DNA from: Winogradskyella thalassocola
Lineage (GTDB): Bacteria; Bacteroidota; Bacteroidia; Flavobacteriales; Flavobacteriaceae
Direction: 5' to 3'
DNA length: 64,000 nt
Assembly: GCF_900099995.1 (NCBI RefSeq)
Contig: NZ_FNCZ01000002.1
Coordinates: 372,001 to 436,000, forward strand
How positions within the stretch are numbered: the first letter of the stretch is position 1; each line of letters opens with the position of its first letter. Under the pieces are notes generated by a model. The model was not told the origin of the DNA. It ran no database searches and worked only from the letters and a program-made list of their open reading frames with translations. The translations under genes were made by a program, and so were the position numbers. Positions 1-13,611 of this stretch are shown piece after piece.

Positions 1-1015
1 TATGAGTACCACTCAATTTATGGCAGTGCCTTATTCATTGAGCTCTGCTGATAACCTTTGGCAAAGAAATGGAGATGATGCAACTGCTATTACAGAAAAA
101 GTTGGTATTGGTACTTCAGAACCAGAAAGCTTATTGCATATCGAAAATGATGGTGAGACTAACGTGACTGATCTAAGAGTGCATTCAAATTTTGGACCGA
201 GCGATATTATATTAAGTGTTGGTCGTTTTTCAGAAACAAATAACAAAATTACTTCTAGTGGAGGTAATTTGACCATCAGCCGATATTTTGAAGATATGGG
301 TGAAACTCTTGATCTCTTGCATATAACACATGATGGAAACATAATAGCACCAAATAGTAATTATGTATATGATTCCCATGCGCTCACAACAAGAGGTTAT
401 AATGATAACAGATATTTGAAAAAGGGAGGCAATATTACTTCTGATAATATAGGGATTGGTAGAGATACACCTTCAAGTCTATTAGAAGTTGCCCATCAAG
501 ATGGAAGCCCTTCTTCATCAAGCCGCACCAATGCTTTTAGTATTCGCAATTTAGGTACCGGAAGATCGTGGCAATTTTATACACATTCTTCGGGTTATTT
601 AGAATTGTTTAATGATGGTAATCATAAAGGATCTTTTAATCCAAACTCTGGTGTTTACAATACAGTTTCAGACAGACGCCTAAAAAAAGACATCACAGCT
701 TTAGAAAATGGCACACTCAATAAAGTAATGCAACTCAACCCTGTAAGCTACTTAATGAAAGACCAAACGGATACTAAGCGTAACTTAGGTTTAATCTCTC
801 AAGAAGTACAAGTGATATTTCCAAGTATTACAAATTATGTTGAAGAATCAGACTTAATAACCTTGTCTTATACTGAGCTGATTCCAATTCTCATAAAAGC
901 ATTGCAAGAGCAACAAAATATTATTGATGGTCAACATTCAGAAAACATACAACAGAACCACGCTATTCAATCTTTGCTGCAGCGCATGGATGCGCTAGAA
1001 TCCGCAAATAATTAA
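1..1015 (+). CDS. Tail-fiber-like exported protein with S74 chaperone C-terminus (5' partial)
   Basis: The reading frame is open at the left edge, so this is the 3' part of a gene that begins upstream. The first visible residues, MSTTQFMAVPYSLS, match an internal stretch of the 794-residue neighbour (from its residue 112), so the first visible ATG is not the start. The body carries the fiber-type motif GIGTSEPESLLHI and a second copy, GIGRDTPSSLLEV. From visible residue 223 an S74 (intramolecular chaperone, autoprocessing) domain begins: Ser223-Asp224 followed by Lys228, then LNPVSY, LGLISQEVQ and a helical tail ending near LLQRMDALE. In known S74 proteins this domain trimerises the fiber and cuts itself off at the Ser of the SD motif. 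The signal peptide and N-terminal domain should lie outside the window. Role as a surface fiber is inferred. Confidence 0.85.
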   Translation, partial: MSTTQFMAVPYSLSSADNLWQRNGDDATAITEKVGIGTSEPESLLHIENDGETNVTDLRVHSNFGPSDIILSVGRFSETNNKITSSGGNLTISRYFEDMGETLDLLHITHDGNIIAPNSNYVYDSHALTTRGYNDNRYLKKGGNITSDNIGIGRDTPSSLLEVAHQDGSPSSSSRTNAFSIRNLGTGRSWQFYTHSSGYLELFNDGNHKGSFNPNSGVYNTVSDRRLKKDITALENGTLNKVMQLNPVSYLMKDQTDTKRNLGLISQEVQVIFPSITNYVEESDLITLSYTELIPILIKALQEQQNIIDGQHSENIQQNHAIQSLLQRMDALESANN

Positions 1016-1045
1016 ATATGTTTAACCAATAAACAAAAGCACATT

Positions 1046-1579
1046 ATGAAAAAATCAATTTTAACATTAATAACACTAATTGCTCTATTAACTTTTAGTT
1101 GTGAAACAGAAATTCCAGAAACCGATTCAACAGCTCCAACATTTAGTTTACACATTAAAAGCGCAAGATTTGAACATACGTTTACGCAAGATGACGATTT
1201 TAATAACATCACCCTTAAATTAAAAAATGATGCAGGTTATCAATTTACTCTAACAGGAGTTGATAATGGTGGAGTAAGAATGATGCGCTGGCAAGTGCCA
1301 AGTAATGATCATATAGAATTTGATAATGAAATATTAAGCCCTTGGACTATAAGAAATATATCACCTTTTAACAGAATGATTGAGTTTTTAGGTGACAGGA
1401 ATAACCCATATACTGCTGAGTTTCTAAATGGAAAATTCAGAGCGAAAGGAAACCAAGCATTTGCCGTTTTCAACATTTTTATATCAGATTTTGGTGGGGA
1501 ATCTGCTAATTATAACAATGCTTCTGCAGCATTAGATATAGCTATAGGCAATTGGGAAGCAGAAATTATTGAGAATTAA
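1046..1579 (+). CDS. Small lipoprotein of unknown function
   Basis: A 177-residue protein with a lipoprotein signal peptide: Lys at positions 2-3, a hydrophobic core, and a lipobox ending LLTFSC, with Cys19 as the predicted lipidated residue. The mature part is acidic and polar and shows no domain I recognise; the sequence looks beta-rich (for example KLKNDAGYQFTLTGV and AFAVFNIFISDFGG). It lies 30 bp after the fiber gene at the left edge and 72 bp before the next fiber gene, all on the same strand. The spacer after it holds a 3' remnant of a fiber gene (1584-1640), so the lipoprotein gene may sit where a fiber gene used to be. It is probably a partner of the fiber proteins at the cell envelope, but this is inferred only from position. 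Confidence 0.8.
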   Translation: MKKSILTLITLIALLTFSCETEIPETDSTAPTFSLHIKSARFEHTFTQDDDFNNITLKLKNDAGYQFTLTGVDNGGVRMMRWQVPSNDHIEFDNEILSPWTIRNISPFNRMIEFLGDRNNPYTAEFLNGKFRAKGNQAFAVFNIFISDFGGESANYNNASAALDIAIGNWEAEIIEN

Positions 1580-1583
1580 AAAA

Positions 1584-1640
1584 AGCTTATTAAATAACCT
1601 CATCTCACGTGTAGAAAAAATAGAAACCAATAACCAATAA
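1584..1640 (+). pseudogene. 3' remnant of an S74 fiber gene
   Basis: The spacer translates, in the frame starting at 1584, to SLLNNLISRVEKIETNNQ followed by a TAA stop at 1638-1640. The last 17 codons of the intact 794-residue fiber gene read almost the same (LNNLILRVEKIEANNQ, stop at 4034-4036). From 1596 to 1642 the DNA differs from 3992-4038 at only three of 47 positions. No start codon or upstream fiber sequence is attached, because the lipoprotein gene ends at 1579. I read this as the tail of a deleted or replaced fiber gene. Confidence 0.7.
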
Positions 1641-1651
1641 AAATCAGCACT

Positions 1652-4036
1652 ATGAAAGCATTTACGTTATTAATTGTATTAATCATTTCAAGTATAAGCT
1701 TTGCGCAGCAAGGCATTAACTACAAGGCACTTATTAAAGATGACCTAGGAAATGTTCTGGCCGACCAAACTATTGGTGTTCAGTTTCAAATACGTGAAGC
1801 CGCAGCAAATGGTAGTGTTGTTTATTCTGAAACACATACACCAACAACTGACGCTAACGGAATCATAGTTTTAAACATTGGTACAGGTACTACTACAGAT
1901 ACATTTAGTGCTATTGATTGGAGTAGCAATGAGCATTGGCTTAATCTACAAATTGATATTACAGGTGGCACGAATTATACAGATATGAGTAACACTCAAT
2001 TTATGGCTGTGCCTTATGCTTTAAGTGCTGTTAATGCAGCCACTAAAATAGACGATTTATCAGATGGTAATTCTGATACTAATGGTTCATCTCTATTCAT
2101 TGGTATAGATGCTGGGGAGAATGATGATGGTACTAGCAATAGAAATGTAGGTTTAGGATATAGATCACTTTACTTAAATACAAATGGAAATAATAATACC
2201 GCTAATGGATATCAAGCTTTAAGAAATAATTCTACAGGTACTAATAATATTGCTCTTGGAGCTTATTCATTATATAACAATACAACAGGGCGTTATAATT
2301 CGGCTAATGGAGCATCTGCTTTATTTTCTAATACTATGGGAGATTACAATACAGCTAACGGATATAGATCTTTATATAGTAATACTGAAGGAGATAATAA
2401 TACTGCAATAGGTGATCAATCGCTTAATTCCAATACAACAGGAAGTGATAACACAGCTTCTGGAAGTTCTACCTTAGAAAATAACACTACAGGTACAAAT
2501 AATACTGCTAACGGATATTATGCAATGCGGTTTAACACCACAGGCACTAATAATACAGCTATGGGCAGAAGTGCCTTAGTGTTAAACACCATAGGAAGTA
2601 ATAATGTTGCATTGGGTGTTGAGGCTTTACTTTCAAATACTGAAGGAACTGATAATACCGCTAACGGTTATAGAGCATTATATTCAAATACTATAGGAAT
2701 TTGGAATTCTGCATTGGGTAACAGAGCTTTATATTCTAATACCACAGGAAATAATAATAGTGCTCTAGGACGTTTAGCTTTGTATAGTAATACGTTAGGT
2801 AATGATAATACTGCATTAGGGCGTTCGGCTTTATATCTAAATACTGAAGGTAGTCGTAATACCTCTACTGGTCATTCTGCTTTATATTCTAACACCACAG
2901 GAGACGATAATACTGCAATGGGTCATAGTGCATTGTATTCCAATACAACAGGAGATGATAATACCGCAATGGGACATTCTGCTTTGAATTCCAATACTAC
3001 AGGAGAAGAAAACACCGCATTAGGATATTTTGCACTTTTTTCAAACACTACAGGTGAAAAAAACACTGCCTTAGGGACGAATTCATTATCAACAAATAAC
3101 ACTGGTTTCAATAACAGCGCCATGGGTTATAAAGCTTTAGAATCAAATACTACTGGATTTCAAAATACGGCAACAGGCTCAGAAGCATTAAAGAATAACA
3201 CAATAGGTTATTTCAATACCGCAACAGGACATAATTCGTTAGGGAGTAATACCACTGGAGATAATAATACAGCAATGGGCTATCATGCATTGGAAAGAAA
3301 TATAGACGGTAATGGCAATACAGCAATGGGTACTCAAGCATTAGATCGAAATGATGATGGTAGTGGTAATGTAGCTATCGGAACATTCTCATTAGGCTTC
3401 AATAGAAAAGGAGATAATAATACCGCGGTAGGACTTAGAGCCCTAGAAAATACTAGTACAGGACATAATAATACAGCTATTGGTGGAAGAGCTCTATCAG
3501 AACTTAATAATGGTGGATTCCTTATTGGTCCGAGTAATAATATTGGTATTGGCTATGAAGCAGAGGTACCATTTCCTACAGGTTCTAATCAAGTGCGTAT
3601 TGGAAATACCGACATTACTTATGCAGGTATACAAGTAGATTGGTCCATAACCTCAGACAAACGATGGAAAGACAACATACGTAAGTTACCCTATGGATTA
3701 GATATGGTGATGCAATTAAATCCTGTGGATTATATCCGTAAAAATAATGAACATAATACTCGCGAAATCGGATTTATAGCTCAAGAATTAGAAGAACTAC
3801 TTAATAAATTAGCCTACACCGATCAAGGTTTATTGACCAAAGATGATAAAGGCTATATGAGTGTGCGTTACAATGATTTTATTCCCTTGCTAACAAAAGC
3901 AATTCAAGAGCAGCAAGCTATTATTGAGAGTCAAAACTCACAAATTAAAACCATGTCAGCAGACAATTCCTCTTTAAAAACCACCCTTAACAACCTCATC
4001 TTACGTGTAGAAAAAATAGAAGCAAATAACCAATAA
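1652..4036 (+). CDS. Repeat-rich tail-fiber-like exported protein with S74 chaperone
   Basis: A 794-residue protein with a Sec signal peptide (cleavage likely after SISFAQ, near residue 19). Residues ~20-125 form the N-terminal domain shared with the 8214 and 9907 genes (GINYKALIKDDLGNV, then THTPTTDANGII and a FMAVPYALS end). Residues 165-623 are 27 tandem 17-residue units of consensus NTAxGxxALySNTTGdN, which suggests a left-handed beta-roll or beta-helix shaft. An S74 domain follows: Ser668-Asp669, Lys673, then LNPVDY, IGFIAQELEEL and a coiled-coil-like tail. By family knowledge the C-terminal domain drives trimer assembly and autocleavage. The start ATG at 1652 directly precedes the signal peptide. 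The 4047 lipoprotein gene starts 10 bp downstream. A surface adhesin or fiber is the most likely role; the target is unknown. Confidence 0.85.
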   Translation: MKAFTLLIVLIISSISFAQQGINYKALIKDDLGNVLADQTIGVQFQIREAAANGSVVYSETHTPTTDANGIIVLNIGTGTTTDTFSAIDWSSNEHWLNLQIDITGGTNYTDMSNTQFMAVPYALSAVNAATKIDDLSDGNSDTNGSSLFIGIDAGENDDGTSNRNVGLGYRSLYLNTNGNNNTANGYQALRNNSTGTNNIALGAYSLYNNTTGRYNSANGASALFSNTMGDYNTANGYRSLYSNTEGDNNTAIGDQSLNSNTTGSDNTASGSSTLENNTTGTNNTANGYYAMRFNTTGTNNTAMGRSALVLNTIGSNNVALGVEALLSNTEGTDNTANGYRALYSNTIGIWNSALGNRALYSNTTGNNNSALGRLALYSNTLGNDNTALGRSALYLNTEGSRNTSTGHSALYSNTTGDDNTAMGHSALYSNTTGDDNTAMGHSALNSNTTGEENTALGYFALFSNTTGEKNTALGTNSLSTNNTGFNNSAMGYKALESNTTGFQNTATGSEALKNNTIGYFNTATGHNSLGSNTTGDNNTAMGYHALERNIDGNGNTAMGTQALDRNDDGSGNVAIGTFSLGFNRKGDNNTAVGLRALENTSTGHNNTAIGGRALSELNNGGFLIGPSNNIGIGYEAEVPFPTGSNQVRIGNTDITYAGIQVDWSITSDKRWKDNIRKLPYGLDMVMQLNPVDYIRKNNEHNTREIGFIAQELEELLNKLAYTDQGLLTKDDKGYMSVRYNDFIPLLTKAIQEQQAIIESQNSQIKTMSADNSSLKTTLNNLILRVEKIEANNQ
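2144..3520 (+). repeat. Tandem 51-bp coding repeats (27 units of 17 residues)
   Basis: Twenty-seven head-to-tail units, each 17 codons, lie inside the 794-residue fiber gene with no change of phase. The most conserved positions are Asn1, Ala3, Gly5, Leu9, Asn12, Thr14 and Gly15. Units 15-17 are nearly identical to each other (HSALYSNTTGDD type), pointing to recent unit duplication, while the first and last units are more diverged. This length and pattern resemble beta-roll repeats of trimeric fibers but with a longer period than the 14-residue YadA head repeat. Confidence 0.9.
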
Positions 4037-4046
4037 AATCAAAATC

Positions 4047-4670
4047 ATGAAACTATACATAGTATTACTCGTACTTATTACCACGCTAACATCTTGCAAA
4101 GAAAGCAATGAAACAAATTCATTAAAACAAATTGAAATTACAGAAACAGCAACTGCGGAAGTAGTAAACAAAGAAACACCAATTAGCATTGAATCAGCAA
4201 ATAAAGGCACTTTTCTATGTGAAATTAACGGCAAAGATTGGGCTTACACCAAAGCATCAGGTATTGTTGATACACATGCAAAAACAAAAAAACGTACGGC
4301 AATAATGACGTTTACCAAGAAACTAGATAAAGGCTCAGAAAGTGTACAGTTGTTTTACGATGCAGACAGTTATCAGTTAGAAAAAGCTACAGCTATTCTA
4401 AAGACTCCCAAAAAAGGAGGTGGTACAATGAGTGCCATGTACCAATTGCTTAATGAAGGAGGTAAGCGTACACCAGATAGCGTAATTTCAGGAGTCATAG
4501 ATTTATCTAATGCTACAGTAGCATCTGGTACTGCTGAGGTTTCAAATATGAAAATCCGTTTTAAAGAAGATGAATTAGAAGATGCATCCATGGAGGTCAT
4601 AACTTTTTCATCATTAAAATTTAGTGGTGTAGGCTACTCAGATTTAGATAAAGTGTTCGGTAATAATTAA
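4047..4670 (+). CDS. Lipoprotein of unknown function
   Basis: A 207-residue protein with a lipoprotein signal (MKLYIVLLVLITTLTSC, predicted lipidated Cys17). After a polar Glu/Thr-rich linker of about 35 residues, the mature domain starts with a CEINGKDW motif. That kind of opening is common in small Bacteroidota envelope lipoproteins in which a short beta-sandwich follows (nGkdW). I cannot name the family. It starts 10 bp after the repeat-rich fiber gene and ends 17 bp before the next gene, so it is probably co-transcribed with both. An envelope-located partner of the fiber is plausible but not shown. Confidence 0.8.
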   Translation: MKLYIVLLVLITTLTSCKESNETNSLKQIEITETATAEVVNKETPISIESANKGTFLCEINGKDWAYTKASGIVDTHAKTKKRTAIMTFTKKLDKGSESVQLFYDADSYQLEKATAILKTPKKGGGTMSAMYQLLNEGGKRTPDSVISGVIDLSNATVASGTAEVSNMKIRFKEDELEDASMEVITFSSLKFSGVGYSDLDKVFGNN

Positions 4671-4687
4671 TTAAATACTTCACCACT

Positions 4688-6268
4688 ATGAAAACTATAA
4701 TCACACTCGCCTTTGTTGCTTTTAGCTATGTTGGTTTTGCGCAACTTATAGATAATTTCGGTAAAATAATAACTCATGAAATTATATTGAATAAACAAGA
4801 TGATGGTACTTATACAGGTGCAGTCGAATGGACAACAGGAGGCATCGATTCTCTGCAACGGTTTGTGATTAATGATCTGAGTATTAAAGCGCCAGTTATG
4901 GTTAGGATAGTTTCAAAAGCACCAAATTATAATATAGATCTTACATTTCACAAAAATAATTGGGATAGCGAGGAAGCTAAAATTTCTACCAACGGAAAGA
5001 AATTTGTGGATAAAATATTCAGGACTAAAAATTTGTTGGGTCTTGGTGTGAGTTCAGAGGTCGCTGGCATTCCCTATTTAATAAGCGTGAGGGTGGGTCT
5101 GCAATTTCCTTCTACCCAATCTATCATTCGTGTTACCGATGATAAGGAAGAATATACCAAGCATCTGCGTGGTCTCGGTATTCAAGGCGACCCCTTTGGT
5201 GGCAATTCTACCCCGAATACGTCACAAAGTACGGTTGCAACAACAGGAAGTTCTGATGAAAATAATACACTTTTGTACATTATTATAGGTCTCTTGTCAA
5301 TTATAGCAATACTGTTTGGCATATTCCTTTTTAAGAAAAAGCCTAGAAGCAACGCACTATTATTAATGCTTTGTTTCGGTTTTTCACAATTGATGATGTC
5401 TCAAAGTACAACACCAAGTAATGTGCCTATGGCTGATCAATCTGACGTTTTTTTGGATTATGCCAATAACAATGTGGCTAATCAAGTGCCGGTAACTTAC
5501 GATGATCCTGGTTTGATTCCTGCCATGGATAGAGACGCCTATGTGTCATACGATGGAGGTAAAACTTACGCGCTAATTAGATTAAGACCTAATCAAGGGG
5601 CAATTGAATTGTCTCCTGAAGATGCAGCAGAGGTCAATAGACAAATGCAAGAAGCTACCGATGATTTTAATCGAGATTTTAGGGATAATATGCCAGGAGA
5701 GGATACCGAAGGCGATCAAAGAACACTCCCCGTTGACCGAACTGCCGAAGAACTTGAACAATTAAGAAGGCAAGTGAGAAGGCTTCAAGCAGCTGTAGAA
5801 AGATTGGAGGCAGAGAATGAAGATGGTGATGACGACGAAACTGAAAACAATCCAGGCAATGAAATTTTAATCTACTGTGAAGTACGAGACGAATGCTTCA
5901 ATTGCATGAATAAACATTTGCAAGATTTTACGACCCATTACGCCTATTATATCCATTTACAAAACTATTATTTTTTCAAATCGACTGTGTTGAACGATTA
6001 CATCACTTGGGGTAATAGTATGTCTAGTTTGCCTGGAGGAGGAGGAATTGGGTGGACGTCAACTTTATTGCATAAAGTAAGACCTGCCATGAAAAAAATG
6101 AAGAAAGCCTATGATAGTAGATTTGATGATTATATAGCATCAATGGAAAAAGATCTCAGCAATATAAAAAATTGCGCATCTAGTATGCAGCTTGCCAGTT
6201 CAGGTACTTATGAAGCACAAGTAGCACAGTTGATACAAGCGCTAAAAGCTGCAAGAATCTCAAAATAA
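4688..6268 (+). CDS. Exported protein with internal membrane segment, second signal-like segment and coiled coil
   Basis: A 526-residue protein I cannot assign to a family. Residues 1-18 are a Sec signal peptide (ending YVGFAQ). Residues ~20-185 are a soluble beta-rich domain followed by a Ser/Thr/Asn linker. A strong transmembrane helix follows at ~195-214, then a basic FKKKPR stretch and a second hydrophobic run at ~222-238 (ALLLMLCFGFSQLMMSQ) that looks like another signal peptide. The rest includes an acidic, Gln-rich region, a coiled coil at ~352-378 (ELEQLRRQVRRLQAAVERLE) and a Cys-containing C-terminal helical domain (YCEVRDECFNCMNK). The layout suggests two exported proteins fused into one frame, held by a membrane hairpin with both ends outside the cytoplasm. 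The OmpA lipoprotein gene begins 10 bp downstream, so the two probably work together. Confidence 0.75.
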   Translation: MKTIITLAFVAFSYVGFAQLIDNFGKIITHEIILNKQDDGTYTGAVEWTTGGIDSLQRFVINDLSIKAPVMVRIVSKAPNYNIDLTFHKNNWDSEEAKISTNGKKFVDKIFRTKNLLGLGVSSEVAGIPYLISVRVGLQFPSTQSIIRVTDDKEEYTKHLRGLGIQGDPFGGNSTPNTSQSTVATTGSSDENNTLLYIIIGLLSIIAILFGIFLFKKKPRSNALLLMLCFGFSQLMMSQSTTPSNVPMADQSDVFLDYANNNVANQVPVTYDDPGLIPAMDRDAYVSYDGGKTYALIRLRPNQGAIELSPEDAAEVNRQMQEATDDFNRDFRDNMPGEDTEGDQRTLPVDRTAEELEQLRRQVRRLQAAVERLEAENEDGDDDETENNPGNEILIYCEVRDECFNCMNKHLQDFTTHYAYYIHLQNYYFFKSTVLNDYITWGNSMSSLPGGGGIGWTSTLLHKVRPAMKKMKKAYDSRFDDYIASMEKDLSNIKNCASSMQLASSGTYEAQVAQLIQALKAARISK

Positions 6269-6277
6269 ACAAACGCT

Positions 6278-7999
6278 ATGAAAAAACTAAGTCTTCTTTT
6301 ACTAGGTGTATTTGTCATCTATTCTTGTGGTAATAAATCAAGTGATTCTAAAAATTCTAGTACTATTGATAGTACTCCTTCACATACGAGCACAGAATCC
6401 AAGACATCTGAAAATGCAATTGATAATCCTTTCAAAGTTGCTACTAATTCCGAATTAAATGACCTATTTAATATGGGCAAAGGTATGCTTGAAGCCTCAG
6501 AAAAAAATGGCGATGCAGATTTTCAATTAGATACCGAAACCATACTCGATATGTTAGAAGAAAGTGGCGTGTCTCGTGAGTCCATGGAAAAGCTCATCAA
6601 TAATCCAGATAGCCTTAAAGTACTTGCACAACAAGCTATGAAAGCACGACAGGAAGCTAAAGAAGACATGCCTGTAATAAAAGAAAAGATTACAAAAGAG
6701 CAATTAGCCTCGAAAAAGACACCAACTGGTGTGTCTTTAGAAGAAGCTATTTTAATCGTTCAAACTGAATCAGGTCCAGAAGCCACAATGGCAAAACTGA
6801 AAACTATTGATTCTTTAGCAGGCACAAATATGATGTCTCAATTAGATCTTACAGAAGCCGGCTATGTGATGGGTGATGTAGAGCGGAAAAATGAAATTTC
6901 AGCCAGTGCTGAAGAAGAGCAAAAAATGAAAGAACTTCAAGATAAATCACGTCAAATGCATAGTGAAAAAGAGTCAGGAGAACTACTTGCTGAATTGGAA
7001 GCAACCGAAAAGGCGATCGCTTCAGGGAAATTAAAAGCGAGTCCTAGATATGAACGTGCCATTACATACAGAAAAAAAGCGGTCACTCATTTTCATAAAA
7101 ACATTGTTCGTAAATCGGAAGTCGCGAAACGAAAATTTAAAGCATTAAATCCAGATTTATTTTATGGAGATGAGGTCGGTGTAAGCTATGTGGGTAATCT
7201 TAATAAAACAGTGTATTTACCATTAGGACCATTGTCTTTTGCAGATGAGGTCGTACAGGTTAATCATCCACAACTTTTAACACAAGAGGTAAATAACGTT
7301 CTCGGAGAACCCGATGTTATAGAAACATTTGATGATGCTACTGGCATATATAGTCTTGGACTTGGCGGTACATTAACTATCCGTTTTACGGATAACGCTT
7401 TAGTAGATGTTAATGGACCCGATTTATATCTTTTTGAAATTGGCCAACTAGAACCCACAGATCTCGAAATATCAAAAGACGGAAAATCTTGGATAAAAAT
7501 CGGAAAGATTGATGGAGGAGTGGCTGAGGTAGATATTAGCTCGTTTGTAAAGCCCAACGAACTCTTTTATTATGTACGGTTTAAAGACCTTAAGGAAAAA
7601 AGTGGAGTACCAGGTGCTGATGTCGATGCCATTGCAGCTATTGGCTCTGCAATGCGATTAAATTTAGATAGTCAAGTATTATTCGATTCTGGTAAAAGTG
7701 AATTAAAACCTGAAGGTATAAATGCATTAAAAGAATTAGTAAGAAATATCACTGTACTCAAAAAAGGAAAAGTAATCGTTGAAGGTCATACCGATGATGT
7801 GGGCAGTGAATCAACCAATAAAGCCTTGTCACTAGCACGTGCTCAAAGTGTATCTAAGGCATTAAGACAGTTAATACCAAGCACTCAATTTAAATGGCAA
7901 GAAAAAGGCTATGGCGAATCTAAGCCTATAGTAGAGAATGATTCGGATGAACATAGAAGTAAGAACAGGCGCGTAGAAATATTGGTGGTGCCTAATTAG
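6278..7999 (+). CDS. OmpA-domain lipoprotein
   Basis: A 573-residue lipoprotein (lipobox VIYSC, predicted lipidated Cys17). Residues ~20-310 are polar, helical and Glu/Lys-rich. Residues ~320-462 form a beta-sandwich-like surface domain (LGEPDVIETF, SLGLGGTLTIRF, DLYLFEIGQ, LEISKDGKSW) of a kind found in large bacterial cell-surface proteins. Residues ~467-573 are a complete OmpA-family peptidoglycan-binding domain: FDSGKSELKPEG, VEGHTDDVGS, NKALSLARAQSV and SKNRRVEI are all present, including the Asp and Arg that bind diaminopimelate in the family. The predicted product is anchored in the outer membrane and grips the cell wall. It sits 10 bp after the 526-residue membrane-hairpin protein and between fiber genes, so it could anchor the fiber system; that link is inferred. 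Confidence 0.88.
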   Translation: MKKLSLLLLGVFVIYSCGNKSSDSKNSSTIDSTPSHTSTESKTSENAIDNPFKVATNSELNDLFNMGKGMLEASEKNGDADFQLDTETILDMLEESGVSRESMEKLINNPDSLKVLAQQAMKARQEAKEDMPVIKEKITKEQLASKKTPTGVSLEEAILIVQTESGPEATMAKLKTIDSLAGTNMMSQLDLTEAGYVMGDVERKNEISASAEEEQKMKELQDKSRQMHSEKESGELLAELEATEKAIASGKLKASPRYERAITYRKKAVTHFHKNIVRKSEVAKRKFKALNPDLFYGDEVGVSYVGNLNKTVYLPLGPLSFADEVVQVNHPQLLTQEVNNVLGEPDVIETFDDATGIYSLGLGGTLTIRFTDNALVDVNGPDLYLFEIGQLEPTDLEISKDGKSWIKIGKIDGGVAEVDISSFVKPNELFYYVRFKDLKEKSGVPGADVDAIAAIGSAMRLNLDSQVLFDSGKSELKPEGINALKELVRNITVLKKGKVIVEGHTDDVGSESTNKALSLARAQSVSKALRQLIPSTQFKWQEKGYGESKPIVENDSDEHRSKNRRVEILVVPN

Positions 8000-8213
8000 G
8001 TAAAGTGTATTCAATTTATCGAATTGGGAATTAAAAACACTGTAGAGCCCACGATACGATTTACATTATGAAAAGGCACAATTAAGGCATTAACTTTTGT
8101 TTTAGAGTAGTTTGAGTCTATGCTTATAATAACAAGATATAGAAAAAAATAAGTTTATGTTAACATCCTATGTTTTTATCTCACTAAAGGTAAATGCATA
8201 AACAGTAACCATT

Positions 8214-9653
8214 ATGAAATCACTTATTACTCTTATTTTAACTTTATTACTCGCAACACTTGGTTTTGCGCAAAACGGCATCAACTACAAAGCCATTATC
8301 AAAGATAACTCTGGTAATGTTATCGCCAACGATTTAATATCCGTACAATTTACCATTCTTCAAGGTGTAGATCAAACCAATGTGTATCAAGAAACCCATA
8401 CACCAACTACAGATGCCAACGGCCTTATTATTGTAAATGTTGGTGAAGGCACACTTATAAGTGGCACGTTTGCAACTATCGATTGGGCAAGCGATACGAC
8501 CTTTTTAAACACCAAAATAAATACAGGATCTGGTATGGTAGATATGGGGACTACCGAGTTTAAAACGGTGCCTTATGCTATAAATGCTAAAACAGCAACG
8601 GTTGCTGCGAACGTGACAGGTCTCGAAGCGCTTAATGAAGGAAATGGCATAGGTTGGAGATTAAAAGGACGAAACCCTAGTTATTATGGTAGTATTGGAT
8701 TAAGTGCTGTAGATTTAAGTTATAGTAGTGGATCAAGTTTCTTGAATGGCGCTATAGGAGATTATTCCATTTCTATGGGTGAAAACACAACAGCCTCAGG
8801 ACAAAATTCCATATCCATGGGTGAAAATACTTATGCACCTGGACAAAATTCCATATCCATGGGATTTAACACAAGAGCCTCAAGTTATGCATCTGTAGCT
8901 ATTGGAAAATACAATGTCGGTGGAGGAAGTGCTTCAACTTGGGTTTCAACTGATCCAATATTCGAAGTTGGTTTTGGCGGCTATATTGGGTTTCCAGTCA
9001 ATAATATAATTAGATTAAACTCTTTTACAATTTTAAAAAATGGCAATGTAGGAATTGGTACTTCAACACCGTCTACAAGTTTGCAAATAGCTGTAGGTGA
9101 TGATGCTAGCTATAGTAGTGATTCGGGTTATTTGGTATTGGGCTCTACCAATGGGTCTAATCTTGTTTTTGACCAAAATGAAATAATAGCAAGAAATAAT
9201 GGAGCTGCCTCAACACTTTTTTTACAACAAGATGGTGGTGATGTTAGAGTTGGAGGTGTAGTAGTGCATAGTAGCGACAGACGTCTAAAAAAAGACATCA
9301 CATCTTTGACTTACGGTTTAGAAACCATTTTAGAATTAAACCCTGTAGAATACAATTGGAAAAATAGAGAACAAGACCATAAATCGCTTGGTTTAATTGC
9401 TCAAGAGGTACAACCTATACTCGAAAACATAGTACATATTGCAGATGACGAGGATAAAACGTTAAGCGTTAGCTATACGGAGTTAATTCCTGTGCTGATT
9501 AAAGCCATTCAAGAACAACAAGAGATTATAAAAATCCAAGCTTTAAAAATAAACGGGCTTACCGCAGAAGCAGAAGAGAAGGACAAAACTCTAAAGGCAT
9601 TTGACAGTCGTTTAAAACAGATGGCAAGCGTATTAAATCAAACACATCAATAA
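8214..9653 (+). CDS. Tail-fiber-like exported protein with YadA-head-like repeats and S74 chaperone
   Basis: A 479-residue protein with a signal peptide (cleavage likely after LGFAQ, residue ~20). Residues ~21-125 are the shared N-terminal domain (GINYKAIIKDNSGNV, THTPTTDANGLI, FKTVPYAINA). Residues 186-235 contain three 14-residue units (ISMGENTTASGQNS and two variants) ending in VAIGKYN, the pattern of YadA-type trimeric adhesin heads. A NVGIGTSTPSTSLQI motif follows. The S74 domain begins at Ser354-Asp355 with Lys359, then LNPVEYNW, LGLIAQEVQ and a helical tail. A 214-bp spacer separates it from the OmpA gene, so it may have its own promoter. Likely a trimeric surface fiber that processes its own C-terminus. 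Confidence 0.85.
   Translation: MKSLITLILTLLLATLGFAQNGINYKAIIKDNSGNVIANDLISVQFTILQGVDQTNVYQETHTPTTDANGLIIVNVGEGTLISGTFATIDWASDTTFLNTKINTGSGMVDMGTTEFKTVPYAINAKTATVAANVTGLEALNEGNGIGWRLKGRNPSYYGSIGLSAVDLSYSSGSSFLNGAIGDYSISMGENTTASGQNSISMGENTYAPGQNSISMGFNTRASSYASVAIGKYNVGGGSASTWVSTDPIFEVGFGGYIGFPVNNIIRLNSFTILKNGNVGIGTSTPSTSLQIAVGDDASYSSDSGYLVLGSTNGSNLVFDQNEIIARNNGAASTLFLQQDGGDVRVGGVVVHSSDRRLKKDITSLTYGLETILELNPVEYNWKNREQDHKSLGLIAQEVQPILENIVHIADDEDKTLSVSYTELIPVLIKAIQEQQEIIKIQALKINGLTAEAEEKDKTLKAFDSRLKQMASVLNQTHQ
8769..8894 (+). repeat. Three 42-bp coding repeats (14-residue YadA-head-like units)
   Basis: Three consecutive 14-codon units start at 8769, 8811 and 8853. The first two are nearly identical (ISMGENT-x-A-x-GQNS), and the DNA around GQNSISMG is repeated almost exactly at the unit junctions. 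A diverged fourth unit (VAIGKYN) follows. The 14-residue period and the S-x-x-x-G spacing match the head repeats of trimeric autotransporter adhesins. Confidence 0.8.
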
Positions 9654-9745
9654 TGACAACTATCATTTATATCTGTTCTGCAATTATAATATTAATTCTA
9701 TTCAACTTTATGTTATTACTATTTAGTTGTAATAAGAATAAATGA
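9653..9745 (+). CDS. Possible 30-residue hydrophobic peptide, translationally coupled
   Basis: An ATG overlaps the TAA stop of the fiber gene (TAATG at 9651-9655) and opens a 30-codon frame ending TGA at 9743-9745. The product would be almost all hydrophobic (IIYICSAIIILILFNFMLLLFSC) with a short basic Asn/Lys tail, so a single membrane helix or a lipoprotein-signal-like peptide. The overlap suggests translational coupling. It is too short to judge by composition and could be chance. Confidence 0.25.
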   Translation: MTTIIYICSAIIILILFNFMLLLFSCNKNK

Positions 9746-9761
9746 TGGTTAGCGCAATAAT

Positions 9762-9844
9762 GTTACATAAGTTACATCAATTGTTACAATAGTGATAAGG
9801 TTACAGATGGATCTATAATACTTTTACCAAAGTATTGTAATACT
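9762..9844 (+). promoter_or_regulatory. GTTACA repeat cluster and nested inverted repeat before a fiber gene
   Basis: Four direct GTTACA hexamers begin at 9762, 9771, 9783 and 9800. They are followed by a perfect 8-bp inverted repeat (AATACTTT at 9817-9824 and AAAGTATT at 9829-9836) and a third overlapping arm, AATACT, at 9839-9844. The cluster lies 63-145 bp upstream of the 9907 start, a suitable position for an operator or leader structure. No regulator can be named. Confidence 0.35.
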
Positions 9845-9906
9845 AACAATCAAAAGTCTTAATATATATAAGCAATATGTAATTAACAAATAACCAATTT
9901 CTTCTT

Positions 9907-11619
9907 ATGAAAACAAAAATTACATTACTCATCTTATTCCTAACCACTTTAGGATTGGCTCAAAATGGCATTAATTATAAAGCAGTAATTAAAGATAACA
10001 TTGGCAATATTGTAGCTAATGATCTCATTGTTGTGCAATTTTCGATATTACAAGGAGCGGCGCAAACCAATGTCTATACAGAAACCCATTCGCTTACAAC
10101 GGATGATAATGGAATAATTACATTAAACATTGGAGAAGGAATCATAATTTCTGGAACGTTTTCTTCTATTGAATGGGCAAGTGATGACCATTTTTTAAAT
10201 GTTCAAATCAACATAGGATCCGGACTCACTGATATGGGAACCACACAATTTAAAACGGTGCCTTATGCTAAAACAGCAGGTCAAGCGATTTCAGCGAATA
10301 ATATTGAGTTGCCTTACTATGATGAAACATCAGAATCTGGTGCTGCATTTCATGTTCAAAACGATTACCTAAATGGACGCTATGGAATAGCAGGTTCTGT
10401 TGGGTCTGGATCTGAGACATTGCCAGCAAATAATGCTGGTGTTATGGGTCAGGGTACTGGAGCACATGGCGTATATGGAGTATCTAAAACAAGTTTCTTA
10501 GCAGGTGTACAAGGTGTCTCTGAATCCTCAGAAGGAGTAGGTGTACAAGGCTATGGTATTGGAGGAGGTATTGGCGGTCATTTTTACACAACTTCTAATG
10601 GTGTTGCTGCATTAACTACTGGTAATGGAAATGTAGGTATCGGCATAGGTGAACCAGAAATGAAGATGCATGTGGGTGGTGATTTGTTTATTCAAACCAA
10701 TTTAGGAGAATTAGTTATGGGATTTCCAAACAATGGAAACCAATGGCAAGTGAGTACAAGAGCTCAAGGTGCAGATTTACAATTTCAATCTAAAGCAACT
10801 AGTATAAATAGTTTCACTACTCAATTTAGAATGCTACAGAATGGGGAGTTTCAAGTAGGAGATATTAGCACACCAAGTGCCTGGTTACATGTTAAAAATA
10901 ATTCAAATATTAATAAAGAGCAACTTCTCTTAGAAGAAGTAGGAAATGATTATGCCAGATTAGGATTTACTAATACCACCACTGATGCAAAATGGGATAT
11001 TGCAGGATTTCCAAGTAATACAGCATCCTCTGCACGACTCAATTTTTATTTTAGAAATGATGCTGGTGGAAGTGATAGAATGACAATAACTGGTGATGGA
11101 GAGGTCGGTATTAATGGCTCACCTACAGCGAGACTTGAATTATTTCAAAGAAGTCAGAATGTTGGCACTGGTTTACGTTTCGATGATGGTACTGCCAACA
11201 GTGATTGGGACATTACTCATGGTTTCTCTCTGCGTTTTCATTATGGAGGAAATTTAAAATCACTTATAACTGCAAATACTGGAGCTTATATTGTTAGTTC
11301 GGATATTAGCCTAAAAAACAATATTGAAAACATGAAATCTACATTAGATCGTGTTAAGCAACTAAGACCAACGACGTATTACTATAAGGACGATTCTTCA
11401 AAAACTAAAGCATTAGGATTTATTGCCCAAGAGGTAAAGCCTATTTTTCCAGAAGTAGTTCATTTTTCAGAAGCCGATGAATTATACGGAATTGACTATG
11501 CTTCTTTTGGCGTTATTGCCATTAAAGCCATTCAAGAGCAACAGAAAATTATTGAAATACAACAACAGCAAATAGATGAACTTAAAATGCAAGTAACACA
11601 TCTACTTAATAAACAATAA
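9907..11619 (+). CDS. Tail-fiber-like exported protein, glycine-rich middle, S74 chaperone
   Basis: A 570-residue protein with a signal peptide (cleavage after LGLAQ, residue ~19). Residues ~20-125 are the shared N-terminal domain (GINYKAVIKDNIGNI, FKTVPYAKTA), closest to the 8214 gene. The middle has Gly-rich turns of GVxG type (GVMGQGTGAHGVYG, GVQGVSES, GVGVQGYG), a NVGIG motif, and a beta-rich shaft. The S74 domain is more diverged: Ser465-Asp466 then Lys470 (SSDISLKNNI), LRPTTYYYKD, LGFIAQEVKPI, and a Gln-rich coiled-coil end. The catalytic-type Ser, Asp and Lys are all kept. It starts 253 bp after the previous fiber gene behind a repeat-rich leader, and the next gene follows after 4 bp. 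Confidence 0.85.
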   Translation: MKTKITLLILFLTTLGLAQNGINYKAVIKDNIGNIVANDLIVVQFSILQGAAQTNVYTETHSLTTDDNGIITLNIGEGIIISGTFSSIEWASDDHFLNVQINIGSGLTDMGTTQFKTVPYAKTAGQAISANNIELPYYDETSESGAAFHVQNDYLNGRYGIAGSVGSGSETLPANNAGVMGQGTGAHGVYGVSKTSFLAGVQGVSESSEGVGVQGYGIGGGIGGHFYTTSNGVAALTTGNGNVGIGIGEPEMKMHVGGDLFIQTNLGELVMGFPNNGNQWQVSTRAQGADLQFQSKATSINSFTTQFRMLQNGEFQVGDISTPSAWLHVKNNSNINKEQLLLEEVGNDYARLGFTNTTTDAKWDIAGFPSNTASSARLNFYFRNDAGGSDRMTITGDGEVGINGSPTARLELFQRSQNVGTGLRFDDGTANSDWDITHGFSLRFHYGGNLKSLITANTGAYIVSSDISLKNNIENMKSTLDRVKQLRPTTYYYKDDSSKTKALGFIAQEVKPIFPEVVHFSEADELYGIDYASFGVIAIKAIQEQQKIIEIQQQQIDELKMQVTHLLNKQ

Positions 11620-11623
11620 AATT

Positions 11624-12676
11624 ATGAAAACGATATCAACCCTATTAAGCCTGTCTCTCGTTATGTTCTTGAGCAATGCACAATCCATAGAAAAATTCAG
11701 CATAGATTCTGGTGGTGCATCAGTAACAGCTGGTGGCATTCAAATGCTCTATACCATTGGTGAAGTCAATGTACAAGAGTTAAGTGCTGGAGGAATTTCG
11801 GTATCTGAAGGTTTTATTAATGCAGATCTTAAAATCAGTATTAATCCTAAACTATTTTTACAAGGTCCAATTCTCAATCCTACCAATGCAGGATTAATGA
11901 ATGATGATTTAAGAGCTTCTGGTTACATACCAACCACAAGTCCGTATTCAGATGCTGCGACTTGTAATGCTTCGGTTTTTAATGTTACAGGTACTAATGC
12001 TATTGTAGATTGGGTTTGGTTAGAACTGAGAGACAAAACAGATAATACATCCGTTATTTTATCACAGTCAGCTTTGTTGCAACGCGATGGTGATGTGGTT
12101 GCTACCGATGGAGTCTCTAACATAAACCTTAATGTGGCATCAGATGATTATTTTGTAGTTGTTAATCATAAAAACCACTTAGGTATTATGACCAATACAC
12201 CTGTAGCCATAACACGCTCTTCAGGTCCATCTGTTATAGATTTTACAGATGTTAATACAACAACTTATGGTACACAAGCGCAAGCAACGTTGACATCTGG
12301 AGCTAAGGCACTTTGGGCAGGCGATGTTAATGGCGATGGTTTGGTAAATTTTGCCGGAGATGTTAATGGTGTTACGACGGATATTATTTTATTTTCTGCA
12401 AATACAGATTTCAATACAAATTATGATTTTGTTAATGGGTATTTTAAATCCGATGTGTTTCTCGATGGTAACGTATCCTTCTCTAATGAAGTTAATCAAA
12501 TCTTATTGTCCGTAATTTTATATCCATTAAATACCGGTTTTAACTCGCAATACAATCTGTTTGCCGAGCAATTACCTTCTCCTTCGGCATTAAGAAGTAC
12601 AGCACAATTAAGCCTTGATCAATTACGTCTAGAAAGAGCCTTAGAAATAATAGAATTAATAAATAATAATAACTAA
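11624..12676 (+). CDS. Exported protein with DxNxDG calcium-binding-like motifs
   Basis: A 350-residue protein with a signal peptide (cleavage after FLSNAQ). The opening (SIDSGGASVTAGGIQMLYTIGEVNV, here a motif spanning residues ~27-51, then SVSEGFIN) is typical of flavobacterial exported hemagglutinin-like proteins. The central part (LMNDDLRASGYIPTTSPY; DWVWLELRD; NHLGIMT) is a conserved domain often seen in such proteins. Near the C-terminus are a clear DVNGDGLVNF and a related DVFLDGNVSF motif, spaced like the paired calcium-binding loops of dockerin-type modules. No T9SS sorting domain is present. The start is 4 bp after the fiber gene, so the two are probably one transcript. Function is unknown; a secreted surface protein is likely. 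Confidence 0.75.
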   Translation: MKTISTLLSLSLVMFLSNAQSIEKFSIDSGGASVTAGGIQMLYTIGEVNVQELSAGGISVSEGFINADLKISINPKLFLQGPILNPTNAGLMNDDLRASGYIPTTSPYSDAATCNASVFNVTGTNAIVDWVWLELRDKTDNTSVILSQSALLQRDGDVVATDGVSNINLNVASDDYFVVVNHKNHLGIMTNTPVAITRSSGPSVIDFTDVNTTTYGTQAQATLTSGAKALWAGDVNGDGLVNFAGDVNGVTTDIILFSANTDFNTNYDFVNGYFKSDVFLDGNVSFSNEVNQILLSVILYPLNTGFNSQYNLFAEQLPSPSALRSTAQLSLDQLRLERALEIIELINNNN

Positions 12677-12696
12677 TGTCCTATTGAAGGTATGAG

Positions 12697-12714
12697 ACTG
12701 CTTAATCAAGCAGT
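12697..12714 (+). other. Short stem-loop after the DxNxDG protein gene
   Basis: A perfect 7-bp inverted repeat (ACTGCTT / AAGCAGT) with a 4-nt AATC loop lies 21-38 bp after the stop codon. There is no T-run after it, so it is a weak terminator candidate. Confidence 0.35.
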
Positions 12715-12761
12715 TCAGCACAAGTCGCTAGACATTAGAAAAAGGAATAGATTTTAACGAG

Positions 12762-12806
12762 CTGATTAAAAGGAGAAATTAATGAACTGAAAACACTTTT
12801 AATCAG
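12762..12806 (+). other. Perfect 11-bp inverted repeat before the T9SS cargo gene
   Basis: CTGATTAAAAG (12762-12772) and its exact reverse complement CTTTTAATCAG (12796-12806) flank a 23-nt loop, ending 35 bp before the start codon at 12841. It could be a leader structure or an operator for the cargo gene. Confidence 0.35.
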
Positions 12807-12840
12807 ACACTAATGAATAATTAACATCAAAACAAAAATT

Positions 12841-13611
12841 ATGAAAAAAACAATTACACTTTTAGCCATTTTAATAGGTTCAGCATCATTATTTGCACAG
12901 AACGTTACTTTCCGATTAAATTGGAATCCAGACAATTCTAACTACGAACTCTATGTAAAACGAGATATCGATGCCGCTGCACCAGTAACCGTTGCGGGTA
13001 CTGCAGCAGTAACTATTGTTTTTCCAACGGATGTCTCTGGTACTAGAACGTTAGCACACACAAGTGAAAGTGTTTCCACGTTTAATCCAGCAGGTGCCGC
13101 TATTAGAAGTCCTGAAGCCTCACCAGATAATGATTTCTATGTATTTAACTCAACAGGAGGTGCAAGTTATATTGGTGTTTTATTCGCTGATGTTGAGGTG
13201 CTATGGATGACGTTTACACCATCAGATGGTAACTCTGAAGCACGTTTGTTTGAAAATGCTACAGATCCCGATTCATCTGGTGCTGGTATGATGGGGGTTA
13301 ATGCACTATCTGATTTTTATACAATAACTCTTGCAGGTGCGATTAATGAGTTTGCAGGCAATGAAGTATTAAGTGTTCCAACGAATGAAATTACAGAATT
13401 ATCTGTGTATCCAAATCCAGCAACAGACAAAGTTAATATTGTATCTAATAACCCAATAGATAGCATTGAAGTTTATGACATCTTAGGGAAACAAGTACAA
13501 GTTTTAAAAGGTGCGGATGAGGTTAATGTTTCTAAGTTAGAATCTGGAATATATTTATTTAAAATCCGAATTGGAAACCAAGTTGAAACACGAAAAATAG
13601 TTGTAAAATAG
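12841..13611 (+). CDS. T9SS-secreted protein with type A C-terminal sorting domain
   Basis: A 256-residue protein with a signal peptide (cleavage after SLFAQ). Residues ~20-175 are a beta-rich domain of unknown function (NVTFRLNWNPDN; FVxAxVEVLWMTF-like stretch). Residues ~186-256 are a complete T9SS type A sorting domain: SVYPNPATDKVNI, IEVYDILGKQV, VSKLESGIYLFKI and the basic end KIVVK. In this family the domain directs crossing of the outer membrane and is removed with attachment to the surface. The start ATG directly precedes the signal peptide. It is the last gene of the exported-protein cluster and ends only 9 bp from the end of the convergent ribB gene. Confidence 0.88.
   Translation: MKKTITLLAILIGSASLFAQNVTFRLNWNPDNSNYELYVKRDIDAAAPVTVAGTAAVTIVFPTDVSGTRTLAHTSESVSTFNPAGAAIRSPEASPDNDFYVFNSTGGASYIGVLFADVEVLWMTFTPSDGNSEARLFENATDPDSSGAGMMGVNALSDFYTITLAGAINEFAGNEVLSVPTNEITELSVYPNPATDKVNIVSNNPIDSIEVYDILGKQVQVLKGADEVNVSKLESGIYLFKIRIGNQVETRKIVVK

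Follow-up and report, generated by a model that had tools for sequence, protein, structure and literature searches.

In a stretch of 64,000 nucleotides from Winogradskyella thalassocola (positions 372001-436000 of contig C18, i.e. NZ_FNCZ01000002.1, in a genome of 4.57 Mb; this whole stretch is referred to as the window) we identified, next to a row of genes for exported fibre proteins ending in the chaperone domain S74, a gene encoding a secreted protein with a small domain that we call TIGE (our own name; consensus around SIDSGG...LYTIGEV.V.E...SEGF). The fibres share an N-terminal domain, termed N-domain in the following, and the TIGE protein with its link to the type IX secretion system (T9SS) is the most widely conserved fibre partner. 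Judging from the sequences we assign a probability of about 0.6 to a model according to which the fibres would dock via their N-domain on the TIGE domain of the adjoining, T9SS-displayed protein.

The gene run lies on one strand, the forward strand of the window, and extends from just 5' of the window to position 13611 with intergenic gaps of 4 to 253 bases. It is composed of fibre 1, fibre 2, the lipoprotein-like LP1, fibre 3, the lipoprotein-like LP2, a hairpin protein, an OmpA lipoprotein, fibre 4, fibre 5, the secreted TIGE protein of 350 residues and a T9SS cargo, the signal peptides and lipoboxes of these genes being judged by eye. A search of the whole genome revealed five S74 genes, all of them inside this run, one more than the four fibres claimed in a first-pass annotation of the window. 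S74 (PF13884) scores above the Pfam cut-off in all four fibre frames of the window, i.e. in fibre 2 (1-1015; S74 at about 668-826), fibre 3 (1652-4036; N-domain at about 1706-2035, S74 at about 3653-3811 and a middle of NTxxGxxNTAxG-type repeats), fibre 4 (8214-9653; N-domain at about 8271-8594, two YadA-head repeats and S74 at about 9273-9434) and fibre 5 (9907-11619; N-domain at about 9961-10284 and S74 at about 11299-11463). Since fibre 1 (L006:8120-9652), an additional S74 fibre encoded 5' of the window on the same strand, and the 5' part of fibre 2 (L006:9664-11016) could be located in the surrounding locus L006, the N-domain of about 105 residues, claimed before for three fibres, can be aligned in all five, in each case directly preceded by a signal peptide recognized by eye. 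All five fibres retain the SDxxxK motif of S74, extending the conservation of Ser, Asp and Lys stated earlier for four, and the alignment also confirms that their middles differ from one another. No T9SS sorting domain was detected in a Pfam scan of the frames of fibres 2-5. Taken together, the fibres appear to be cellular, exported and mosaic proteins. In the family, N-domains occur in 57 of 149 Flavobacteriaceae genera and S74 in 45 of 149; among 120 listed N-domain relatives of the 349 found, the tip, assigned by eye, is S74 in 73 and PF07603 in 19.

TIGE beside the fibre genes

The TIGE gene (11624-12676), absent from the first-pass annotation, begins 4 bases after the last fibre gene. Its product carries TIGE, a segment of about 47 residues (11681-11821), following the signal peptide, then a middle domain and a duplicated dockerin-like C-terminal segment (about 12308-12538), which we refer to as the long form. 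TIGE is also present in a short form, i.e. in proteins of about 155 residues having a T9SS sorting domain as C-terminal end, and as part of large proteins that contain further domains. In the proteins scanned, TIGE is not covered by any family of Pfam or NCBIfam.

We built a TIGE model from 19 segments and ran it on the same 149 Flavobacteriaceae genomes that were surveyed for the N-domain, the distances being computed from the 150 N-domain places listed, a lower bound on their total. The model finds 63 TIGE places in 42 genomes, all 42 being among the 57 genomes with N-domains, and the co-location of both domains is highly significant (Fisher p 1e-24). Based on the matches listed, the nearest N-domain is at most 5 kb away for 55 of the 63 places, without exception on the same strand, and at most 20 kb away for 57, compared to 0.56 places expected within 5 kb by chance for random placement in 3.4-Mb genomes. 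With the genome of W. thalassocola and 13 fetched clusters left aside, 40 of 47 places have an N-domain no more than 5 kb away among the matches listed. Within the genus, for which the genomes surveyed include those of Winogradskyella costae and W. marina, this applies to 39 of 41 places at a distance of 5.5 kb, and each of the 12 clusters with at least three N-domains has a TIGE gene inside or within 10 kb.

The pairing extends into the phylum. A survey of 296 Bacteroidota genomes gave 59 TIGE places, of which 38 have an N-domain at a distance of at most 5 kb, invariably on the same strand; inside the family this is the case for 21 of 22 places. In addition, 36 stretches around TIGE places located outside the family were read. 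A model trained independently of these stretches detects an N-domain gene in 26, and a broadened model, for which some of them served as training data, in 30, in each case beside the TIGE gene; the stretches L179, L184, L187, L190, L193 and L195 show no N-domain gene even with the broadened model. Considering all loci read, 62 of 75 TIGE genes are at most 300 bases away from an N-domain gene, all 62 on the same strand, these loci having been chosen for N-domain or TIGE matches. In fibre-cluster stretches of other genera the TIGE model matches 15 of 20, eight of these 15 having supplied seeds for it.

Two further loci were observed in this context. Outside the cluster the genome of W. thalassocola holds a second pair of TIGE and N-domain (G000:C20:54580-55391), composed of a TIGE frame of 198 residues and an N-domain frame of 279 residues without S74 match. 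In L201 (1-1596) a collagen-like frame, truncated at the beginning of the contig, is placed immediately 5' of a gene for a short TIGE/T9SS protein, and it is perhaps another type of tip.

The link to the type IX secretion system

The cargo encoded beside the TIGE protein (12841-13611) contains a T9SS type A sorting domain (about 13405-13605; 60.3 bits compared to a Pfam cut-off of 27), and the genome encodes a T9SS sortase (159 bits, cut-off 40). The 350-residue TIGE protein of the window has no sorting domain itself, the next gene having one. By a simple motif, 38 of the 75 TIGE proteins have a sorting motif, 20 more are encoded directly before a gene with the motif and 17 show neither; five of these 17 are cut by the end of the locus or contig, and eight were scanned with Pfam, all eight matching PF18962 at E<=0.02 and four of them above cut-off. 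The system resembles T9SS type A cargo in the sorting domain, which the adjoining cargo and the majority of short TIGE proteins possess, and differs from it in the fibres, which have no detected sorting domain and the display of which would go through a partner.

Dockerin-cohesin pairs are known from cellulosomes, and the long TIGE protein ends in a duplicated Asp/Asn-rich segment resembling a dockerin. A PDB search with this end gave as sole match at E<=1 a dockerin, although a weak one (E 0.15). In 20 loci the dockerin-like segments form three groups, and the adjoining cargo bodies fall into the same groups except for one cargo (L120). The rank correlation with the cargo body is 0.74 for the adaptor end vs 0.28 for the rest of the adaptor in these loci, and all three types of adaptor end and cargo occur within the genus Winogradskyella, both genes differing together, which fits a matched pair. 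Given that the similarity to dockerin is weak and a cohesin was not found, we regard this as a resemblance to dockerin-cohesin pairs and not as membership.

Alternatively, fibre and TIGE protein might be separate adhesins brought into one operon by shared conditions of use and having no contact with each other, an explanation we consider rather unlikely. It draws on gene order alone being incapable of demonstrating contact, on the occurrence of TIGE on large proteins with other domains and on an unspecific co-variation, the value for TIGE and N-domain (0.61) being no stronger than that of a control pairing sorting domain and N-domain (0.66). It does not account well for the partner's constant element being a domain of about 47 residues, with the remainder of the partner variable, nor for TIGE staying with N-domain genes regardless of the fibre tip, nor for the fibres themselves showing no detected sorting domain.

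Apart from the co-variation, several observations weigh against a docking of the fibres on TIGE. Outside the family, the narrow N-domain model places only 17 of 37 TIGE places of the phylum survey within 5 kb of an N-domain. Seen from the N-domain, TIGE is within 20 kb of 70 of the 117 strongest places listed in the family, TIGE being present somewhere in 37 of the 40 genomes holding those places, and TIGE accompanies 39 of the 67 N-domain clusters of the genus, singletons included. Among 16 stretches examined as exceptions, L198, L200 (a long TIGE protein with its T9SS cargo) and L203 have TIGE without a nearby N-domain and look like real exceptions, and five others of this kind (L197, L199, L201, L202 and L204) are located near contig ends. 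No TIGE match was obtained in the N-domain stretches L205, L206, L207, L209, L211 and L212, and in four of these (L206, L209, L211 and L212) no TIGE relative was seen either; L208 has a weak match (2e-4) adjoining the N-domain gene and L210 a short T9SS protein resembling TIGE by eye. Of the N-domain places without TIGE match, some genuinely lack it and others have a relative below threshold. Moreover, the predicted structure of the TIGE protein is of low confidence (pLDDT 36.9). As for the clasp, Pfam Dockerin_1 gives a weak match in two of 21 homologues (best E 0.0056) and none in the protein of the window, no sequence match to a cohesin was found in the cargo body (12841-13611), and since adaptor end and cargo adjoin on the DNA, the matched types could be a single swapped piece.

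As a separate observation, L205 and L207 encode, beside N-domain genes, proteins of 733 to 2504 residues that are related to the long TIGE protein outside its TIGE domain and give no TIGE match.

The LP2-hairpin-OmpA triad and the phage question

The remaining genes of the run encode LP1 (1046-1579), lipoprotein-like with a lipobox assigned by eye and a lineage accessory, and a triad of LP2 (4047-4670), the hairpin protein (TMH; 4688-6268), for which the alignment reveals a conserved internal hydrophobic segment, and the OmpA-domain lipoprotein (6278-7999; 62.7 bits for the OmpA domain compared to a Pfam cut-off of 27.2). All these components, and the terminal T9SS cargo, had been recognized in the first-pass annotation, which proposed that the fibres have their own wall anchor. 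Accordingly, the triad might hold the fibres to the wall, the TIGE protein being merely a co-regulated neighbour. We judge this to be improbable. In its favour, the hairpin gene is, within the genus, inside eight of the 12 clusters with at least three N-domains, five of the eight having a diverged version with about 430 residues, and nine of the ten retained hairpin loci have an N-domain within 10 kb, nine of 23 rows having been dropped beforehand as weak matches outside clusters. Searching for relatives of the hairpin protein, we obtained 11 loci besides the window, resulting in 12 with the full-length hairpin type. The gene order LP2, hairpin, OmpA is found in 11 of these, the twelfth (L064) stopping within the hairpin gene. 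An N-domain gene is present in six of the 12 (the window, L054, L055, L057, L061 and L064). The distant L061 keeps the order in the series fibre, LP2, hairpin, OmpA, N-domain protein, TIGE protein and T9SS cargo, and in L064 the triad is likewise beside fibres as far as that stretch extends. In the six other loci no fibre is visible in the stretch examined, one of these being a 9-kb contig, and the triad is a module of its own there. These fibreless triads (L056, L058, L059, L060, L062 and L063) often have a hybrid sensor kinase and a DUF4412 protein encoded upstream.

A single hairpin sequence searched against the family matches in nine of 149 genera, in three of them at full length (that of W. 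thalassocola included), and profile searches of the 20 fibre-cluster stretches of other genera gave no hairpin and no OmpA-N in any of them, as opposed to TIGE in 15. The OmpA and hairpin proteins as general fibre partners were rejected on these counts and on the six fibreless loci. We keep the triad as an accessory because it recurs beside fibres within the genus: it is a real, lineage-bound companion rather than a general anchor, and would perhaps provide envelope support. The wall anchor of the first-pass annotation is supported within the lineage but not as a general one, the 20 clusters of other genera being without hairpin and OmpA-N matches. What the annotation itself had named as speaking against its reading, unrelated neighbours in other genomes or S74 genes occurring without these partners, is thus in part observed.

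A phage origin of the run, either as a remnant or as a tail-fibre locus derived from a phage, is highly improbable and was rejected, in agreement with the cellular origin proposed earlier: S74 and the repeat regions have matches in numerous PHROG families of tails and virions, and phage S74 tail fibres and endosialidases likewise have the S74 chaperone domain at the C-terminus, but the proteins described here are secreted cellular proteins with signal peptides assigned by eye, their constant N-domain has no match among 50,697 phage records and none of 31 candidates in viral contigs could be confirmed, no PHROG match was obtained for LP1, LP2 and the hairpin protein, and the matches of the OmpA protein are mostly to families with function not known. 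The repeats of fibre 3 (1652-4036) match phrog_23837, annotated as virion structural protein, with E 3e-121.

Further upstream, 5' of the fibres, L006:1824-7657 encodes two similar hybrid two-component sensor kinases in tandem, having TPR, HisKA, HATPase, receiver and AraC-type helix-turn-helix domains. In the neighbourhood reading, comprising 52 loci, a hybrid kinase profile matches at E<1e-50 in 29 of the 52 (counted by eye).

Kinship with MAT fibres and a proposed mechanism

NCBIfam has a model, Bdello_MAT_N (NF053851), for the mosaic adhesive trimer (MAT) fibres with which Bdellovibrio binds its prey. It matches the N-domain of fibre 3 with E 9e-9, that of fibre 4 with E 9e-9 and that of fibre 5 with E 7e-7. 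As its best score here, 35.3 bits, is below the curated cut-off of 60, we call the fibres MAT relatives and do not file them as members. At E<=0.001 the model has matches in 42 of the 149 Flavobacteriaceae genera, none above cut-off, and in none of 14 control genomes. The description of MAT fibres comes from Bdellovibrio bacteriovorus (Caulton et al. 2024, PMC10769870), where, according to the main text, a signal peptide is followed by a conserved beta-rich N-domain, a variable part and an end formed by S74 with SDxxxK or by another tip. The fibres of W. thalassocola share this layout. They differ in the sub-cut-off score and in the pairing of their genes with a gene for a TIGE/T9SS protein. 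The surface partner of the MAT fibres is left open in section 16 of that paper (PMC10769870), the main text of which contains none of the words OmpA, lipoprotein and Bacteroid. For the fibre-TIGE pair we found no description in the literature covered by our search, including PMC10769870 and PMC12324425, subscription papers and supplements being outside the search. The N-domain is predicted as a compact seven-strand beta fold (pLDDT 90.7), which gave no telling match among solved structures. The constant N-domain combined with exchanged ends is a mosaic design as in MAT fibres, and the system is one of cellular, mosaic fibres related to those of Bdellovibrio.

In genomes of the genus, e.g. at G150:C43:86729, G161:C6:102393 and G209:C12:72728, we also observed frames of about 740 residues with a lone N-domain-like match, in many cases the sole N-domain of the genome and without TIGE match. 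These frames are probably a separate protein family with a related domain.

By analogy to MAT fibres and S74 proteins, each fibre would form a trimer, the S74 chaperone would cleave itself off after folding and be shed, and the variable part would bind a target outside the cell. The fibre N-domain would bind TIGE, with the consequence that one adaptor could serve several fibres. In the short form, TIGE and sorting domain being combined in one protein, the adaptor would be displayed directly by the T9SS. In the long form, as encoded in the window, the C-terminal repeats of the TIGE protein may clasp the body of the adjoining T9SS cargo in a dockerin/cohesin-like manner, and the TIGE protein would be held on the cell surface via this T9SS partner. 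The upstream sensor kinases may control the fibre set. We tentatively extend this to a possible, more general principle, in which the T9SS would export and display phage-like trimeric fibres by proxy across the Bacteroidota: fibres without sorting signal would be carried out and held by a TIGE adaptor with its own sorting signal or one borrowed in a dockerin-like way, one adaptor serving a set of interchangeable tips.

MAT fibres have been described in one predator, their hold on the surface being left open in the main text of that work (PMC10769870), and relatives are now found in many Bacteroidota. The genes of these MAT-like fibres usually adjoin one small domain that neither Pfam nor NCBIfam assigned to a family in the proteins scanned, turning the open issue of what the N-domain binds and how the fibres are retained on the cell into a question of binding between two proteins. 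TIGE, found across the Bacteroidota, is a good candidate for anchoring such fibres to the cell surface and, if true, this would constitute a further way for the T9SS to display proteins that do not carry its signal.

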